DNA of 35,741 nt from a virus. The notes beneath the pieces were generated by a model. The model did no database searches. It saw only the letters and a program-made list of their open reading frames with translations, and had not been told where the DNA came from. The translations under genes and the position numbers were made by a program. Below, piece by piece: positions 3,085 through 14,824 of this stretch. The stretch covers positions 1 through 35,741 of IMG/VR virus record IMGVR_UViG_3300031841_002721. The stretch is one strand, 5' to 3'. The stretch's first letter is position 1, and each line of letters starts with the position of its first letter.

Positions 3085-3708
3085 TTAAGCTTCTAAATCT
3101 CTAATTTGCTTGTTAAATTCTTTTCTCATTTCAAACAGCTCTTGACCAGTCCACTTTCTTACTTGATCAATCTCACAGTATTCTATTATCTCTTTGGCTT
3201 TATCAGCGCCAAACCTCTCAGCCAGCCCAACTTTATAACCTCGAGTGTTTTTATTGCCTTCAATATTCCCGCTTAGGCCTTTGTTACAGTATCGATTACA
3301 TTGCAGCCAACTGTTCATTGGGTCGAACCTTAAGCCACCTTGCGAGCCTACCGTTTTAAAATGACCGTTACACCAATCCATATTCTTTTTGCCGCAGCTA
3401 ATACATTCAGGCTCCAAGCCTCTTTGCTTGAACCACTCAAGTTCTTGCAATCGCCTAAGCTTATTAAATACAAGCTGCGTTAGCTGTAACTGCTTCTTGA
3501 CATCGTTAATATTAAAAAGCTTTTTTTCCAGGTTGTCTTTTTTCTTTTTTGTTGCTATTTGCTTCTTAACCGCCTTCTTACCCTTATTAGTCGCGTACTC
3601 AACAATGCAATTCTGAGAGCAGAAATTACCAACCGGAAGCTTGATCATGGTCTCCGATGGAAATCTATTTGGCTTGCAATTACAGCATTGAAGTTTAGCG
3701 TTTGGCAT
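3085..3708 (-). CDS. ninG: NinG-like recombination protein (Rap family)
   Basis: A 207-residue protein with the NinG layout. An N-terminal Cys cluster (CCNCKPNRFP...FCSQNC) is followed by a Lys-rich coiled coil (about 45-75). The C-terminal zinc-ribbon/HNH-like part shows CISCGKKN, WCNGHF, and LQCNRYCNKGLSGN. Lambda NinG (Rap) is a structure-specific nuclease that resolves recombination intermediates made by the annealing protein. I take the ATG at 3708 (MPNAKLQ), preceded by GGAAAGG, rather than one nine codons upstream. It overlaps the metallopeptidase gene by 14 bases. It fits with the ERF and SSB genes upstream in the same operon. Confidence 0.9.
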   Translation of the reverse strand: MPNAKLQCCNCKPNRFPSETMIKLPVGNFCSQNCIVEYATNKGKKAVKKQIATKKKKDNLEKKLFNINDVKKQLQLTQLVFNKLRRLQELEWFKQRGLEPECISCGKKNMDWCNGHFKTVGSQGGLRFDPMNSWLQCNRYCNKGLSGNIEGNKNTRGYKVGLAERFGADKAKEIIEYCEIDQVRKWTGQELFEMRKEFNKQIRDLEA

Positions 3709-4066
3709 TAAAAACCCTTTCCGCGATAGGTTCAATTAATGAGTAAATCTGACAAGCTAGATATGCTTCGACCTCTGTATTGTCAATTGATATAGGTATG
3801 CCAGCGTGATCCATTATGCAATGGGATAGATGAATAGATTCGTGCATTAAGGTCATTTTGCTGTCTATGCCAATATGAACAATAAACCACGTTTCACCCT
3901 CATGCAGGCCATACCAATAGCATCCGTTTGATTCTGGCGTAAAAATATAGCTTGCACCGTCGTTCAATTTCAAAAAATCGTCTTTTTCTTTATCTCCACA
4001 CAAAACAAGTATTTCAACCCCGTAAGGTTCAATCATTATTAGCTGATTTTTTCTTTTAATTATCAC
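3695..4066 (-). CDS. Small HExxH metallopeptidase-like phage protein
   Basis: A 123-residue protein with the zincin motif HESIH (His75, Glu76, His79) followed by TEVEAYL (about 97-103), where a Glu is a likely third ligand. The fold order suggests a short beta sheet and then the catalytic helix. There is no signal peptide, so it acts in the cytoplasm. It starts with GTG, well spaced from GAGGTG, and overlaps the upstream stop. Small proteins of this design occur in the recombination regions of several phages. The substrate is unknown, and it might process a host or phage protein. Confidence 0.6.
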   Translation of the reverse strand: MIIKRKNQLIMIEPYGVEILVLCGDKEKDDFLKLNDGASYIFTPESNGCYWYGLHEGETWFIVHIGIDSKMTLMHESIHLSHCIMDHAGIPISIDNTEVEAYLACQIYSLIEPIAERVFNAKR

Positions 4067-4239
4067 TTTAATATCACCTCAACAGTTACCGACTTAATAG
4101 AGCCTTTTTTGTGCATCTTCATGCTTTGAATTTTATAGTATTGCCTGTGAAGCTTCCCTTTATTTAAAAAATCTTCAATAGCTATCCACAAATCTTGCTC
4201 TGAAAGGCTCAGAGTGCTGTTACCCTTTTCACATATCAT
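4063..4239 (-). CDS. Small basic protein (58 aa), unknown
   Basis: Starts at the ATG at 4239 (MICEKGNSTLSLSEQDLW), which overlaps the stop of the upstream gene (TAATG) and has GGAGAG before it. The N-terminal half is an amphipathic helix; the C-terminal half is strand-rich and basic (MKMHKKGSIKSVTVEVILK). It is coupled on both sides inside the recombination operon. It could be a small nucleic-acid-binding or regulatory protein; the family is not recognised. Confidence 0.5.
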   Translation of the reverse strand: MICEKGNSTLSLSEQDLWIAIEDFLNKGKLHRQYYKIQSMKMHKKGSIKSVTVEVILK

Positions 4240-5167: not shown

Positions 5168-5509
5168 TTAAAAGGGTGGAAGGTCATCATCAAACCCCGT
5201 GTCGAAAGCGTCATTATCGTATTCAGCTGTAGTGTGATTGAAGGGTTTTCTTTGTTGCGACTTGGCTTGATTGTTATCGCTCTCTCCTTTCCAGAACACC
5301 GTAGCATTACCTAGTATTTGTCCTTTTACGCCATTTTGACGCTCTTCTTTCGTTATTTGCTGCACTACCATTCCGTTATCGCCGAACTCGCCTGCGTTAT
5401 CAACATCGATAAACACTTGAGCATCCAGGTAGGCGCCTTTAGCTCCTTTGAACAATCTACCTTTTTCAATCTTTGAAACATTTATTTTAAGATTTACACC
5501 GTATTTCAT
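5168..5509 (-). CDS. Single-stranded DNA-binding protein with SSB-type acidic tail
   Basis: A 113-residue protein. Residues 1-80 are strand-rich (KYGVNLKINVSKI...YLDAQVFIDVD...GQILGNATVFW), as in an OB fold. A linker then leads to an acidic tail ending GFDDDLPPF, which imitates the tail of bacterial SSB that recruits repair and replication proteins. It lies directly after the ERF annealing gene, a common pairing in phage recombination systems. It should coat single-stranded DNA during replication and recombination. It does not look like a standard host SSB, so the OB-fold call rests on the tail, size and context. Confidence 0.75.
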   Translation of the reverse strand: MKYGVNLKINVSKIEKGRLFKGAKGAYLDAQVFIDVDNAGEFGDNGMVVQQITKEERQNGVKGQILGNATVFWKGESDNNQAKSQQRKPFNHTTAEYDNDAFDTGFDDDLPPF

Positions 5510-5524
5510 TTAATTACCCTTTTG

Positions 5525-6184
5525 TTATCCGTTGAATCCGTAGTTTTTACACAGTTGATCATGCTCTTTCGCTGTTAAGTAATCCGCTTTTTGGACTTCG
5601 CACCGATTAGCTGCATTTTCTTTCACATATTTAGTGATAGCTGTTCGCTCGCTCGATGAAAACTCAAGCATTACCGCTCTTTGCTGCTCAATCATTTCAA
5701 AACTTGCTAACACCTCTCTAACCGCTTGCAAATCTCCGGCATCGTAATGCTCACGCGCTTGCTGGTAAATTTTTTTAAGCATGCTTGGTAGCTGCGGTTT
5801 TTGTGCCGCGTTACCATCATCATCAGCCGAGGGTATTCCCGCAATAGCTTGCAATCCGTACCTCCTGCAATATGTAATTGCTGACCCAGCACCTTGCGCA
5901 TCCTGTTTTGTTAATTGAACAGTGAATTTATTGCTCATCCACTCGCCCGACTCGTGCATTAAAATCGTCTCTACGCCAATTCTGCCACCGTCCTCTATGG
6001 GAAACTGAACATAGCTCAACCCGTTAATAGCAAACGGCTCTTTTACAGCCTCAACTACCGCGCCCAAGTCTGCATATTTGCTTTTGAAAAATGGGTTGTT
6101 AGCGCCTTTATGGGCGCCACCCATGCGCTCTTGAGCCTTACACATAGCTATCGCAAGCTCTTTTATTGATTCTGATTTATCCAT
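5525..6184 (-). CDS. erf: ERF-family single-strand annealing protein
   Basis: A 219-residue protein whose N-terminal ERF domain shows NPFFKSKYADLGAVVEAVK, LHSGEW-type (MHESGEWMSN), GSAITYCRRYGLQAIAGI and DDDGNAA in order. ERF proteins (P22 Erf type) form rings that anneal complementary single strands, used to circularise or recombine phage DNA. The C-terminal third (about 140-219) is helical and variable, as usual. It overlaps the upstream gene by 8 bases and is followed by the SSB-like gene, with NinB-like and NinG proteins further on. This is a complete annealing-type recombination set. Confidence 0.92.
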   Translation of the reverse strand: MDKSESIKELAIAMCKAQERMGGAHKGANNPFFKSKYADLGAVVEAVKEPFAINGLSYVQFPIEDGGRIGVETILMHESGEWMSNKFTVQLTKQDAQGAGSAITYCRRYGLQAIAGIPSADDDGNAAQKPQLPSMLKKIYQQAREHYDAGDLQAVREVLASFEMIEQQRAVMLEFSSSERTAITKYVKENAANRCEVQKADYLTAKEHDQLCKNYGFNG

Positions 6185-6463: not shown

Positions 6464-6837
6464 TGCACCATCCCCCTTGCTTGCTTAGCTTCATAAGAGC
6501 CGTCACGCTCTGGATTCGCGCTCTTGTATGCGATTTCTTCTTGAACTTCATCAATGTAAGCTTTGAACTCGACTATCATCAAGCGCTCTAACTCCATTAC
6601 AAATTTCATAGGGTTTCTATTAGTGATAGCGTCAGTCAGCTCGTCAAGGTCGCACTCTTTACCCTCTGGAGGCTCATAGCTTGCGTTTACTTGGTCGATT
6701 ATCTCTTGATACTCATCAGGATGATTGACTTGCATAAAGCCTAGATTTGACAATGCTTGCTCGTCTGAGATGTACGTTACATCTTCAAGGCCGAATACTG
6801 ATTCTACATACTGTTCGAAAAATGTTAACTGGCTCAT
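6460..6837 (-). CDS. Acidic protein of unknown function (125 aa), first gene of operon
   Basis: A 125-residue acidic, helical protein (MSQLTFFEQYVESVFGLEDV...), rich in Glu and Asp, with no membrane segment or catalytic motif. It is the first minus-strand gene after the divergent promoter region at 6850-6898 and leads into the recombination operon. A strongly acidic early protein could act as a DNA mimic or inhibitor of a host factor; that is only a suggestion from composition and place. Confidence 0.55.
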   Translation of the reverse strand: MSQLTFFEQYVESVFGLEDVTYISDEQALSNLGFMQVNHPDEYQEIIDQVNASYEPPEGKECDLDELTDAITNRNPMKFVMELERLMIVEFKAYIDEVQEEIAYKSANPERDGSYEAKQARGMVQ

Positions 6838-11208: not shown

Positions 11209-11784
11209 CTAACCCATCTTTTGTGATTGTTTAATTAATTCTAGATCGTGCTCATTTAATGATCTTTCTCGTTTCTCATCTTGACTTCTAAACGTCTTTA
11301 CTAGATCAAAGCAGTCCATAGAGAACCATTCGCCGCGAACTTTGTATTTTTTACATCTTCTGTGTAGCTTTTTCTCTAGGTTTCTAGCCGTCTGAACGCA
11401 TTTGCCAGTGTAGTAACTCCAAATCATTTTTAAATCTTTCGGGTTTGACGTTTGAAGTTCTTTTATTCTACTTTTTGGGTTGTAACTCATACCAAGCTTA
11501 ATCATCTCTCCATCGGATATCCCATACAAATATTGCTTCTTATCTGTATTTTTTGACTCTCTAACCGCCTTATGTCTTCTAATAATAACATCCGCATAAT
11601 CCCATTGAGATGGCGACAATCCATGCCTACGCAAATACCAAGTTATTAGAGAGGACGCGATCGACCTATCTTTCTCATCAATTGTTTTTGATTTAACTAT
11701 TCTATGCAAGTTCGCCATCAACTTTTGTTTCTCTGTTAAACCTCTTTTTGCTGATTCACTCTTCCACTTTTTCTTTTTAGCCAT
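11209..11784 (-). CDS. T5orf172 / GIY-YIG-type endonuclease-like protein
   Basis: A 191-residue protein. I take the ATG at 11784 (MAKKKKWKSES), because GGGGGA lies before it; an ATG six codons upstream is less likely. Residues 1-90 are very basic. The second half (about 96-170) shows YLYGISDGEMIKLGMSYNPKSRIKELQTSNPKDLKMIWSYYTG...NLEKKLHRRCKKYKVRGEWFSM, which fits the T5orf172 branch of the GIY-YIG nuclease superfamily. The key YLYGI, KLGMS-NP-SR, E and GEWF positions are present. It is next to the tRNA and structured-RNA region and may be a mobile or defence-type nuclease. Activity is not certain. Confidence 0.72.
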   Translation of the reverse strand: MAKKKKWKSESAKRGLTEKQKLMANLHRIVKSKTIDEKDRSIASSLITWYLRRHGLSPSQWDYADVIIRRHKAVRESKNTDKKQYLYGISDGEMIKLGMSYNPKSRIKELQTSNPKDLKMIWSYYTGKCVQTARNLEKKLHRRCKKYKVRGEWFSMDCFDLVKTFRSQDEKRERSLNEHDLELIKQSQKMG

Positions 11785-11794
11785 ATCTTCCCCC

Positions 11795-11872
11795 TTTCCC
11801 ATAGGCTGGTAAGTTATCTAAACTCACTAAACCTTGGTACTCGTTACCCTTTTATATTTCCCATAGACTGGT
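11795..11872. repeat. 16-bp direct repeat pair (11795-11810 and 11857-11872)
   Basis: TTTCCCATAG(G/A)CTGGT occurs twice, 62 bp apart, with one mismatch. One copy lies at the upstream edge of the GIY-YIG-type gene, the other inside the small frame at 11827-11973. It may mark a past small duplication or exchange here. Confidence 0.6.
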
Positions 11873-11973: not shown

Positions 11974-12015
11974 GAATCTAAATTCTTAAGGACTTGTTAA
12001 TTAGCATAAATGATA

Positions 12016-12092
12016 TGGACCCCTCGGTAGGATTCGAACCTACAATCTTGACGTTCGTAGCGCCTTGCCTTAGTCCGTTTGGCCACGAGGGG
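12016..12092 (-). tRNA. tRNA-Arg (anticodon ACG)
   Basis: A 77-nt cloverleaf with encoded CCA. The acceptor CCCCTCG pairs with CGAGGGG, discriminator U, D stem GCC/GGC and T arm GTAGG TTCGAAT CCTAC. The anticodon loop CTACGAA gives anticodon ACG at 12056-12058; one stem pair (A-A at 27-43) is open. The UACGA loop is what host TadA deaminates to inosine, which would widen decoding to CGU, CGC and CGA. Confidence 0.92.
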
Positions 12093-12098
12093 TTTATT

Positions 12099-12175
12099 TG
12101 GTCCGGCTAGAAGGATTCGAACCCTCAACCTGCGCGGTAGAAACACGCTGCTCTAGTCCGTTGAGCTATAACCGG
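12099..12175 (-). tRNA. tRNA-Arg (anticodon TCT)
   Basis: A 77-nt cloverleaf with encoded CCA. The acceptor is CCGGTTA/TAGCCGG, the D stem GCTC/GAGC, the anticodon stem GCGTG/CGCGC with loop TTTCTAC, and the T arm GAGGG TTCGAAT CCTTC. The anticodon TCT reads AGA, a rare codon in many gammaproteobacteria but frequent in this AT-rich phage. Six bases separate it from the next tRNA. Confidence 0.93.
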
Positions 12176-12201
12176 AATTTATATCATCTATTTACTGAGG
12201 A

Positions 12202-12295
12202 AGTGTTTATATGAAGGGGAGCTGCCAACCACTTTAAGGCTAGCTGCCAAGGTTTCAAAAACCCGATTGCCGCAACTCCACCACATATAAACACT
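12202..12295 (-). other. RNA hairpin domain with 12-bp perfect terminal helix
   Basis: AGTGTTTATATG (12202-12213) is the exact inverse of CATATAAACACT (12284-12295). Inside, the minus strand pairs GGAGTTG with CAGCTCC (one G-U) and forms GGTTT-TTG-AAACC. TTGGCAGCT occurs twice inside the domain. It resembles no tRNA I can fold. Confidence 0.7.
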
Positions 12296-12312
12296 ATTTA
12301 GACTGCTTAAGG

Positions 12313-12485
12313 GAGCGGGTTACACTGGAATCGAACCAGCTGCTACAGGGTGAGTATCAAAGCGTTAATTAAGGTTAATTGCTGGCACTACCCAACGTTA
12401 TCTTATTCTTAATAATACTTTTCGTTCTCAGGGTTAGTAGCCCTTACAGCCCCAAACTCTACCTATTTGAGTTAATAACCCGCTC
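12313..12485 (-). other. tRNA-like domain with a ~100-nt insertion
   Basis: GAGCGGGTTAT (minus strand, from 12485) pairs with GTAACCCGCTC (to 12313) over 11 pairs. Next to the 5' strand is a D arm (ACTC AAATAGGTA GAGT, 12456-12472) with the GG of D loops. Before the 3' strand is a T arm (GCTGG TTCGATT CCAGT, 12324-12340). Between them TGGGG CTGTAA is followed by about 100 nt and then CCCTG, which would close a normal anticodon arm (Tyr GTA if the insertion were removed). Inserted sequence has its own helix GCTAC/GTAGC and a direct repeat CAGGGTNAGT (12346-12355, 12429-12438). No CCA is encoded, unlike the two tRNAs below. Confidence 0.6.
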
Positions 12486-12521
12486 TATTAAACAGTCTAT
12501 TGCTTTTCTGATAGGCGAAAA

Positions 12522-12666
12522 AAAAGCCTTACAGAGAAACCCTCAGTCGTACCCCAAAGTGCCAGTTCACGGTTTTTTAACTAAGGGCTAAGGATTTCTC
12601 TATAAAGCCTTCAAATCAAATTGTAATACGTGAACTAGTCTTTCTTTCTATAACTTCGCTGTACGA
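12522..12666 (-). other. 25-pair helix crossed by two helices (pseudoknot)
   Basis: 12588-12612 pairs with 12522-12546 over 25 uninterrupted positions, six of them G-U on the minus strand. The 41-base loop contains the partners of two upstream segments: 12564-12571 with 12629-12636 (8 perfect pairs, 10 with a G-U) and 12547-12552 with 12661-12666 (6 pairs). The long helix ends in TTTTTTTT, so it could also act as a terminator. Confidence 0.65.
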
Positions 12667-12677
12667 TCAGCCTTTTA

Positions 12678-12705
12678 ATTATACCTCATTCTTGGCTATT
12701 GTCTA
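12678..12705 (-). promoter_or_regulatory. Strong sigma70-like promoter for the ncRNA/tRNA unit
   Basis: Minus-strand TAGACA, 16 bases, TATAAT. The -35 lies in the last codons of the gene ending at 12696, and the predicted start is near 12671. This is one of the two best promoters in the window. Confidence 0.7.
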
Positions 12706-12938
12706 GCCTTCCTAAAAAAATTCTCATACTCAGCGCATCCGCTCACCATATCAATATGAGCACTATCAAATGGGTCGAAATTAATGCTATTAACTTTTTC
12801 AAAACGCCTAATAACCCTTAAACCATCAGTCTTAGATTCTGTTACACCGCCATACCAGCCGCATCTTCTGGCCTCATCAATAGCCTTAAGCATGGCCTTA
12901 ACATACCTTTCCCGTGATGACATAAACACGTTTACCAC
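12696..12938 (-). CDS. Unknown small protein (80 aa)
   Basis: An 80-residue protein, GTG start (MVNVFMSSRERYVKAMLKAIDEARRCGW...), with AAGGAG upstream. An N-terminal helix rich in Arg is followed by strands and FDPFDSAHIDMVSGCAEYENFFRKARQ. It is the last gene before the RNA region and its 3' end carries the -35 of that promoter. No motif recognised. Confidence 0.5.
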   Translation of the reverse strand: MVNVFMSSRERYVKAMLKAIDEARRCGWYGGVTESKTDGLRVIRRFEKVNSINFDPFDSAHIDMVSGCAEYENFFRKARQ

Positions 12939-14005: not shown

Positions 14006-14292
14006 TCACTCCAAGAAAGCTTAGAGGCTAATATCTTGCCGTTAATATCATTAGCTTTTGCTGAGCCGCTAAATATCGTGTTAGTTGTTTCAATATTCAT
14101 TATTGTAGGCTCTTCGCCCGTTGCGCTAACGTGGGCTTTATTCATTGTTGCAAGCTTATCCATTGCTTTATCGATACTAGTACGCTCTTCTTCCATATCG
14201 GCTATTAGACTGTCCATCATGCCCTCTACACGTGTTAACCCTGTACCTAGTAGGTTGACCCGTATTTCCTTTAATCGTTGAATGTGGCTCAT
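14002..14292 (-). CDS. Unknown helical protein (96 aa)
   Basis: A 96-residue protein with a long N-terminal helical region (about 1-50, including GLTRVEGMMDSLIADMEEERTSIDKAMDKLATMNKAH) that looks like a coiled coil, then a polar part. It overlaps both neighbours by 4 bases. No membrane segment. Function unknown. Confidence 0.5.
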   Translation of the reverse strand: MSHIQRLKEIRVNLLGTGLTRVEGMMDSLIADMEEERTSIDKAMDKLATMNKAHVSATGEEPTIMNIETTNTIFSGSAKANDINGKILASKLSWSE

Positions 14293-14714
14293 TTTGATAA
14301 CTCCTTATTGTGTTTAATTAAATCACTTAAAGTCCACTGGTGGCATGTACGGCTTTTAATGCCTAACATAGAAGGCTTAGGGATAACCCCAGATTTAAAA
14401 TAATTGTGGATCGTGCCATCACTTTTAACTTTAAGGATTCTTGCTAAGTCTTTAGCGGATAAAGTGTGGTCGGCTGGCATTCCTTTATACTCGTCTAGAT
14501 TTATATGCCTTTTCGACATCTTCCGTCTAACTCGCTTGCATTTTTCAATGTCATTGACGAAGTTGGCCTCTGCTACGCCTACAACCTTGATTTTTCCACC
14601 GTTTTTCAGGAATTCGTCAACATCTTTTTGAAGTTGGGCGCTTTCTTCAATTTTTGGTGCGGCGATCGGAACTCTGTTTTTGCAATGTTGTATTCTGCTT
14701 TGAATTGTTCTCAT
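14289..14714 (-). CDS. Helix-turn-helix DNA-binding protein (MerR/AlpA-like)
   Basis: A 141-residue protein. I start at the ATG at 14714 (MRTIQSRIQHCKN), because it overlaps the stop of the 37-residue membrane gene; a frame 21 codons longer would run through that gene. The C-terminal part (about 85-140) reads LSAKDLARILKVKSDGTIHNYFKSGVIPKPSMLGIKSRTCHQWTLSDLIKHNKEL. That matches the winged-helix pattern used by MerR- and AlpA/excisionase-like proteins to read DNA. The first 80 residues are basic and may bind DNA or a partner. It probably controls phage genes, with the RHH-like gene just upstream. Confidence 0.6.
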   Translation of the reverse strand: MRTIQSRIQHCKNRVPIAAPKIEESAQLQKDVDEFLKNGGKIKVVGVAEANFVNDIEKCKRVRRKMSKRHINLDEYKGMPADHTLSAKDLARILKVKSDGTIHNYFKSGVIPKPSMLGIKSRTCHQWTLSDLIKHNKELSK

Positions 14715-14824
14715 GATGCTAACCACCCTATAAAAAATGCAATTAACCAAAATGCCAGCACAATTAATCCTAACCATAATAGGCTAACTTGGCCCTCTGT
14801 TGCGTTGTCTTGTTCGTTATTCAC
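14711..14824 (-). CDS. Membrane microprotein (37 aa)
   Basis: A GTG frame encoding MNNEQDNATEGQVSLLWLGL and then a continuous hydrophobic run to WLAS. One membrane segment (about residues 14-35) preceded by an acidic N-terminus. It follows the RHH-like gene by three bases and overlaps the next start (ATGA). The reading is supported by coupling on both sides. Role unknown. Confidence 0.6.
   Translation of the reverse strand: MNNEQDNATEGQVSLLWLGLIVLAFWLIAFFIGWLAS

Follow-up and report, generated by a model that had tools for sequence, protein, structure and literature searches.

What does a phage encode in some 470 nt that hold no convincing gene and lie between a strong promoter and two tRNA genes? 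We addressed this question in a podovirus record from IMG/VR, analysed over its whole stretch of 35,741 nt (hereafter the window), which encodes a T7-like head, connector and internal-virion proteins and a capsid protein nearest to that of Methylophilales phage MEP301 (44%). A preliminary description, made from the letters of the DNA, had read the region as one large structured RNA recalling the giant phage RNAs GOLLD and ROOL, either a divergent member or a new class.

A folded region behind the promoter, and its relatives

Region 12176–12680 of the minus strand folds to −160.6 kcal/mol (z = −5.84), an energy that none of 100 shuffles equalled; the opposite strand reaches −138.0 kcal/mol, and the transcribed strand out-folds the opposite one in six of the eight copies of the locus. 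The dense folding domains claimed in the preliminary description are all present on the minus strand: the helix of about 25 pairs crossed by others corresponds to P3 (23–24 pairs, crossed by P1 and P2), and the tRNA-like domain, the 94-nt hairpin and the two CCA-encoding tRNA genes, both for tRNA-Arg, were recovered as well (Table 1). Its further claim that G-U pairs occur only on the minus strand held in direction, with 17 pairs versus 9 on the opposite strand, while the 'only' proved too strong. Consistent with the initial view that these ~470 nt contain no convincing gene, no long open reading frame (ORF) exists in 12176–12680 on the minus strand, the best one having 36 codons and not being conserved. 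A conserved coding frame among relatives, which had been named beforehand as evidence against an RNA, was looked for across the copies and not found: the longest start-codon ORFs, of 13–36 codons, differ between copies, and ORFs are alike only between copies that share the same module. These results support a structured non-coding RNA region that is read from the promoter at 12678–12705.

The promoter itself, described earlier as a near-perfect sigma-70 site, indeed matches 11 of the 12 consensus bases; a single match of such quality is not rare by itself, and an identical site stands ahead of the locus in seven of the eight copies, with L005 carrying a different promoter-like sequence at the equivalent place. 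The genes flanking the locus on either side lie on the minus strand, and the locus sits between the late genes and a series of early-type genes on the same strand, encoding replication-initiation-like and PAPS-reductase-like proteins, a cytosine methylase, an ERF annealing protein and NinG; the promoter therefore faces the early genes. A promoter scan of the minus strand between P3 and position 6828 found no second site with at least 10 of 12 consensus bases, suggesting that the tRNAs and the early genes need readthrough. A search for a T7-type RNA polymerase gene gave no match, and the control genomes gave none either, so this negative carries no weight. Elsewhere in the window, a second 11/12 promoter-like site (TTGACA-17-TATTAT; 15065–15037, minus strand) lies between the tail-fibre gene and the gene for a 162-residue protein (14289–14777, minus strand) with a SutA-type RNA-polymerase-binding domain (PF20661, above the cut-off) and a weak HTH. 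The stretch MRTIQSRIQHCKNRVPIAAPK of this protein is invariant among the relatives aligned, and its domain makes it a candidate phage regulator of host RNA polymerase.

Probes for relatives of the locus were short DNA patterns and four proteins: the endonuclease, a structural protein and two encoded nearby. Seven further copies (L002/L019, L003/L008, L004/L022, L005, L014, L021 and L024), all on IMG/VR contigs of the same phage group, were found, plus a fragment in L011. A similar-DNA search of 50,697 GenBank phage records revealed no copy, returning tRNA matches only and nothing significant when the tRNAs were left out, and bacterial genomes yielded none by DNA pattern or by neighbouring protein. 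In the stretches shown of MEP301 and Dunaliella viridis virus SI2, the nearest named viruses by capsid (<45% identity), no RNA gene is annotated. Promoter-pattern matches in L010, L012, L013, L015–L018, L020, L023 and L025 arose by chance in unrelated sequence, and the matches to the C1 arm in L006, L007 and L009 are chance hits inside an ORF of unrelated contigs. Two different versions of the locus (L014 and L021) occur on one 74-kb viral contig, so this contig probably joins two related phage genomes or is a misassembly. The L011 contig ends (13970) 75 nt into domain A and begins at its other end in the early region, as if the assembly had broken at the variable locus. L003 encodes a pentapeptide-repeat-like protein with ADLRSANL repeats upstream of the locus (3577–4230, plus strand), and L021 contains an int-alpA RNA (Rfam RF02996, 46 bits; 1702–1768) adjoining the start of a replication-initiation-like gene.

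Table 1. Positions of the promoter, RNA elements and neighbouring gene in the window
Feature	Position	Strand	Remarks
Sigma-70 promoter	12678–12705	−	−35 TAGACA, 16-nt spacer, −10 TATAAT
Domain A, promoter-proximal pseudoknotted RNA, ~154 nt	12518–12671	−	Start site predicted from the −10 element
P1 5′ strand, AUCGUAC	12661–12667	−	Pairs with 12547–12552
P1 3′ strand, GUACGA	12547–12552	−	Pairs with 12661–12667
P2 5′ strand, CUAGUUCACG	12629–12638	−	Pairs with 12562–12571
P2 3′ strand, CGUGAACUGG	12562–12571	−	Pairs with 12629–12638
P3 5′ strand	12588–12611	−	Inside the loop closed by P1/P2
P3 3′ strand	12524–12546	−	Helix of 23–24 pairs with 12588–12611
U8 tract directly after P3	12518–12525	−	Intrinsic-terminator-like 3′ end
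C1 left clamp arm	12483–12500	−	Same in L003 and L005
C1 right clamp arm	12296–12315	−	Pairs with the 12483–12500 arm
C1 payload, tRNA frame	12315–12481	−	7-pair acceptor, D-arm 12472–12456, T-arm 12340–12324, no CCA
Insert of 92 nt in the anticodon arm of the C1 frame	12352–12443	−	ARAGORN placement, tentative
C2, 94-nt hairpin	12202–12295	−	Clamp AGUGUUUAUA...UAUAAACACU
Spacer UUCCUCAGUAAAUAG	12188–12202	−	At module boundary also in L002, L003, L014 and L021
C3 left clamp arm, AUAGAUGAUAU	12181–12191	−	
C3 right clamp arm, AUAUCAUUUAU	12006–12016	−	
tRNA-Arg (UCU), C3 payload	12099–12175	−	With CCA
tRNA-Arg (ACG), C3 payload	12016–12092	−	With CCA
GIY-YIG-type (MUG113/T5orf172) free-standing homing-endonuclease-like gene	11209–11802	−	First gene after the array

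Domain A, a pseudoknot with a terminator-like end

The helices of the promoter-proximal unit, domain A, are kept in six divergent sequences. The order P1-P2-P3-P2′-P1′-P3′ recurs in all six, with P3 spanning 16–28 pairs across copies (in the window 23 by duplex folding and 24 in a constrained fold) around a loop of ~37–54 nt that contains the 3′ strands of P1 and P2. By the time the 3′ strand of P3 emerges, the nascent transcript already contains P1 and P2 in full, so P3 must thread into the P1/P2 loop.

Compensatory change was assessed by an alignment-free test, in which the 5′ strand of each sequence was paired with the 3′ strand of every other sequence. The set comprised six distinct sequences (the window, identical to L005; L002, identical to L014; L021; L003; L004; and L024), which are 59–81% identical overall and all come from one phage group. 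Mean duplex energies with the own partner were −6.4, −10.5 and −27.1 kcal/mol for P1, P2 and P3, versus −0.9, −1.8 and −9.5 kcal/mol with foreign partners, and for each helix the true partner assignment beat all 719 others out of 720. The strands tested for each helix were picked by eye; when P1 and P2 were retested with whole regions, the true assignment still came first, with a narrower margin. Support for P1/P2 was weaker in L004 and L024 than in the other four sequences, their whole-region energies (−16.1 and −11.3) being no better than those with some foreign partners. Within P3, both sides changed in 12 of 25 pairs between L004 and L024, in 7 of 20 between the window and L003, and in 5–11 pairs between the window and the others. 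Own-partner pairing together with these two-sided changes means that, across six sequences of one phage group, the helices are real by the usual evolutionary standard, and the covariation that the preliminary description had suggested looking for was positive for the first domain. We regard the structure and modularity of the locus as well supported; its function we infer.

A stable helix with an immediate U-rich tract is a mark of intrinsic terminators, and each of the six distinct sequences has a U run that closes or follows P3. The loop of P3, however, is not short, and ordinary terminators lack so long a paired loop as the one that encloses the 3′ strands of P1 and P2 here; a terminator scan with loops limited to 3–8 did not list P3. 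The U8 tract behind P3 probably terminates the first RNA at a length of ~154 nt. The helix, the U-tract and a loop paired as P1/P2 suggest a terminator whose efficiency depends on the pseudoknot, i.e. an attenuator.

Clamped cassettes and their payloads

Domain A is followed by as many as four cassettes, and a clamp stem of almost constant sequence closes each of them: C1 (AUAGACUGUUUAAUAG...UUAAGCAGUCUAAAU), C2, C3 (AUAGAUGAUA...AUAUCAUCUA) and C4 (UUAGCAUAUCAACG...CGUUGAUAUGCUAA). The window contains C1, C2 and C3, the last with the two tRNA-Arg genes as payload, and only a remnant of C4. Across the copies, payloads comprise hairpins, a tRNA frame interrupted by a long insert, the two tRNA-Arg genes of the window and a gene resembling tRNA-Leu; the C2 payload of L003 is a tRNA (39.9 bits) whose D-arm is of the Leu type, whose anticodon loop is widened and whose variable arm is very long. 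Comparison of the window with L005 gave 189 identical nt spanning domain A and the left arm of C1, an unrelated C1 interior, 35 identical nt across the C1/C2 border and an unrelated C2 interior. In nine local alignments of payloads, seven scores did not exceed those of shuffled sequences and two were marginal. The inner C1 clamp pairs change in step: GCGGGUUAU/GUAACCCGC in the window, UGAGUUA/UAGCUCA in L003 and AGAUCUA/UAGAUCU in L005. Whole cassettes are also missing, C1 and C2 from L014 and L021, and C1, C2 and C3 from L002, with the joins at AAUAG spacers. Taken alone, payload fold energies are modestly better than those of shuffles (z from +1.0 to −2.4). The 'dense domains' are thus individual modules, with genuine tRNAs as one type of payload. 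A further non-coding element, which starts with AATGCCTATAGCTAAAGGC and has a variable interior, occurs in L004 (10333–10600), L014 (12480–12740), L021 (440–680) and L024; it follows domain A or the array in relatives without the endonuclease, and had no Rfam match in L004, L014 or L021.

The C1 payload has the acceptor and the D-/T-arm spacing of a tRNA, and its acceptor helix is prolonged into the clamp stem. In place of an anticodon arm of normal size, 115 nt separate the D- and T-arms, and there is neither a CCA nor a free 3′ end, the GUAACCC GCUCCC end being paired into the clamp; normal tRNA maturation is therefore unlikely. In its intron mode, ARAGORN called C1 a tRNA-Tyr(GUA) once the 92-nt insert was removed, with a 7-pair acceptor, a 4-pair D-stem, a 5-pair T-stem and the anticodon loop CUGUAAA. 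None of 1000 full shuffles gave an intron-bearing tRNA, whereas 106 of 1000 (10.6%) still gave some such tRNA when the arms were kept and the middle was shuffled. The C1 frame is therefore real, and the anticodon and splice point are tentative. A tmRNA was rejected for C1, as Rfam matched only a 15-nt fragment at 8.4 bits and a tag frame was missing; at a lowered cut-off ARAGORN made one permuted-type tmRNA call in the window, which was absent in all relatives.

A homing endonuclease gene follows the array in four copies, of the GIY-YIG type in the window, L002 and L003 and of the HNH-AP2 type in L005. The GIY-YIG protein is 98% identical among the window, L002 and L003, though the preceding arrays differ. 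Directly after its cassette array and HNH-AP2 gene, L005 encodes an RNA-ligase-like protein (5356–5913, plus strand; PF17720 RLIG1, above the cut-off) with visible KRDG and EGVVF motifs, which was not found in the seven other records searched. Its sequence suggests RNA or tRNA repair.

A model of the locus, its rivals and known systems

The helices of domain A and their restoration by other bases, the modular clamps and payloads, the end resembling a terminator and the nearby homing endonuclease genes are observed features, and on balance we favour a model in which they form the leader of the early operon: a pseudoknotted terminator or attenuator would release an RNA of ~150 nt, and readthrough would give an exchangeable tRNA/tRNA-like array. 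Host RNA polymerase would read the 5′ leader from the sigma-70 promoter. P1 and P2 would form before P3, whose 5′ strand they would keep within their loop; the 3′ strand of P3 would pair into this loop as it emerges, with the U-tract directly after. Acting together as an intrinsic terminator, P3 and the U-tract would stop some transcripts and release a small RNA; the remaining transcripts would continue, in a proportion governed by the pseudoknot. These longer RNAs would contain a series of clamp-stem cassettes with tRNAs, hairpins and tRNA-like RNAs as payloads, followed by the early genes, with clamp stems and short AAUAG spacers as the fixed frame. Recombination would exchange payloads among phages, with the neighbouring homing endonuclease as a plausible driver in the manner of SegB in T-even phages. 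The payloads might provide tRNAs that are additional or altered, perhaps as a counter to host defences that cleave tRNAs. Termination and readthrough, the stability of the transcript, its processing at the clamp stems and what the payloads do are thus predictions of the model.

The reading as one giant ornate RNA of the GOLLD or ROOL type, possibly divergent and ~470 nt long, could draw on the phage setting, the tRNA neighbours and the ornate fold, and GOLLD and ROOL often lie near tRNA islands (PMC12286853). However, a phage gene beside tRNA genes is a trait common to many unrelated RNAs, and the Rfam scan suggested earlier for GOLLD, ROOL, tmRNA and group I introns gave no match to any. At gathering scores Rfam 15 found only the two tRNAs in the window, and at E up to 10 nothing relevant in 12000–12900, including no GOLLD or ROOL; at E up to 1 the six relatives yielded one tRNA and one int-alpA RNA, and no GOLLD, ROOL or group I intron. 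A group I intron was likewise rejected, the models being without a match in the window and the six relatives. Many GOLLD members exceed 800 nt and share a universally conserved 3′ region (PMC12286853), whereas the present stretch is far shorter, and relatives lack its 3′ modules or have others in their place. The U8 tract after P3 and the gain, loss and replacement of C1–C3 independently of domain A further speak against a single RNA of ~470 nt. The giant-RNA reading is thus largely refuted, and we give it hardly any chance. The proposed 'new class' may hold for domain A alone, which is probably an RNA family of its own that is not listed in Rfam; for the whole ~470 nt as one RNA it is not supported. 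Alternatively, domain A could be a free-standing trans-acting small RNA whose binding partner is a protein or RNA of the host, with the cassettes as an independent tRNA array under another promoter. A promoter, a compact pseudoknot and a terminator-like end lie within one ~150-nt unit, and domain A moves as a block, identical in the window and L005 where payloads differ; but its helix sequences are almost free to change, which misfits antisense pairing with a fixed target, and the stretch from P3 to the tRNAs lacks a good second promoter. We consider such a small RNA possible, if unlikely.

That domain A acts like the HK022 put RNA, a nascent pseudoknot binding host RNA polymerase so that downstream terminators are ignored, is suggested by its place: its start lies at the −10 of the promoter that is directed towards the early-type genes, a position equal to that of putL just past the early promoter (PMC9378689), and a terminator-like element lies between promoter and early genes. 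Yet putRNAs are ~70 nt long, form two stem-loops, have similar sequences and contain bases needed for function (PMC9378689), whereas domain A has twice that length, forms a pseudoknot and is hypervariable, few of its bases being fixed, and we rate this reading as improbable. Decay of tRNA genes in a recombination hot spot, with the folds as functionless leftovers, would agree with a C1 that keeps its tRNA frame without a CCA, with nearby homing endonucleases and with the relatives' arrays, in which default ARAGORN finds no tRNA and Rfam finds one. It leaves unexplained, however, both domain A, whose helices are kept by compensatory change, and the invariant clamp stems around unrelated payloads, and is in our judgement unlikely. 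The narrower proposal of a tRNA-Tyr(GUA) gene in C1, interrupted at the classical 37/38 site by a genuine 92-nt intron whose splicing would follow an unknown pathway, is backed by the ARAGORN arms, the CUGUAAA loop and the full shuffles. Against it stand the calls among middle-only shuffles, the absence of a group I intron match (92 nt being too short for such an intron), the missing CCA and an acceptor running into the clamp, which should hinder RNase P. Because a tenth of the shuffled controls give such calls, we keep this proposal only as a weak rival, and a very improbable one.

The RNA locus is real, previously unlisted and not one giant GOLLD/ROOL RNA. Phage tRNAs are known to counter tRNA-cleaving defences, and to our knowledge the other contents of phage tRNA regions are mostly unexplained. 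As close relatives share a constant frame and differ in payload, comparison shows directly which parts matter, and swaps can test them. With its covariation support, terminator-like end and lack of an Rfam match, the pseudoknotted leader is an easily assayed candidate for a new regulatory RNA family. Speculatively, and with considerable doubt on our side, the whole could be an RNA-diversification locus, in which payloads between fixed clamps are swapped wholesale between close relatives with folding kept, a pseudoknotted leader of a new class meters transcription, and tRNA mimics and structured decoys, in a repertoire that keeps changing, act against host tRNA- or RNA-targeting defences.

Among known systems, GOLLD and ROOL are likewise structured phage RNAs adjoining tRNA genes; the present locus differs in having no model match, a unit of ~154 nt instead of many hundreds, and exchangeable modules. 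C1 shares with tmRNA a tRNA frame interrupted by a long insert, but has a normal D-stem, shares no tag frame with relatives and matches the Rfam model over 15 nt at most. SegB, a GIY-YIG endonuclease of T-even phages, acts on their tRNA region and drives tRNA-Tyr amplification that overcomes Septu (PMC13096335). The locus also has a free-standing GIY-YIG-type endonuclease by a tRNA region, although in a much smaller, unrelated phage and with non-tRNA payloads and clamp stems, and homing is proposed here by analogy. The tRNA-Tyr of T5 overcomes retron-Eco7 (PMC11555353), and as with such anti-defence tRNAs (T5 against retron-Eco7, T6 against Septu) we see a tRNA-rich locus behind a good promoter; C1, in contrast, has a long insert and no CCA, so it cannot simply replace a lost tRNA, and any link to defence would be by analogy. 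On these analogies, payload exchange by such an endonuclease and a role against tRNA-cleaving defences are plausible. With intrinsic terminators and attenuators, domain A shares a helix followed by a U-tract, but its helix has 16–28 pairs and a loop itself paired into a pseudoknot. The nearest precedent by analogy for a structured RNA directly behind an early promoter is HK022 put: domain A, too, would be a structured nascent RNA behind an early sigma-70 promoter with a terminator ahead, yet it is larger, pseudoknotted, hypervariable and itself ends in a terminator-like helix.
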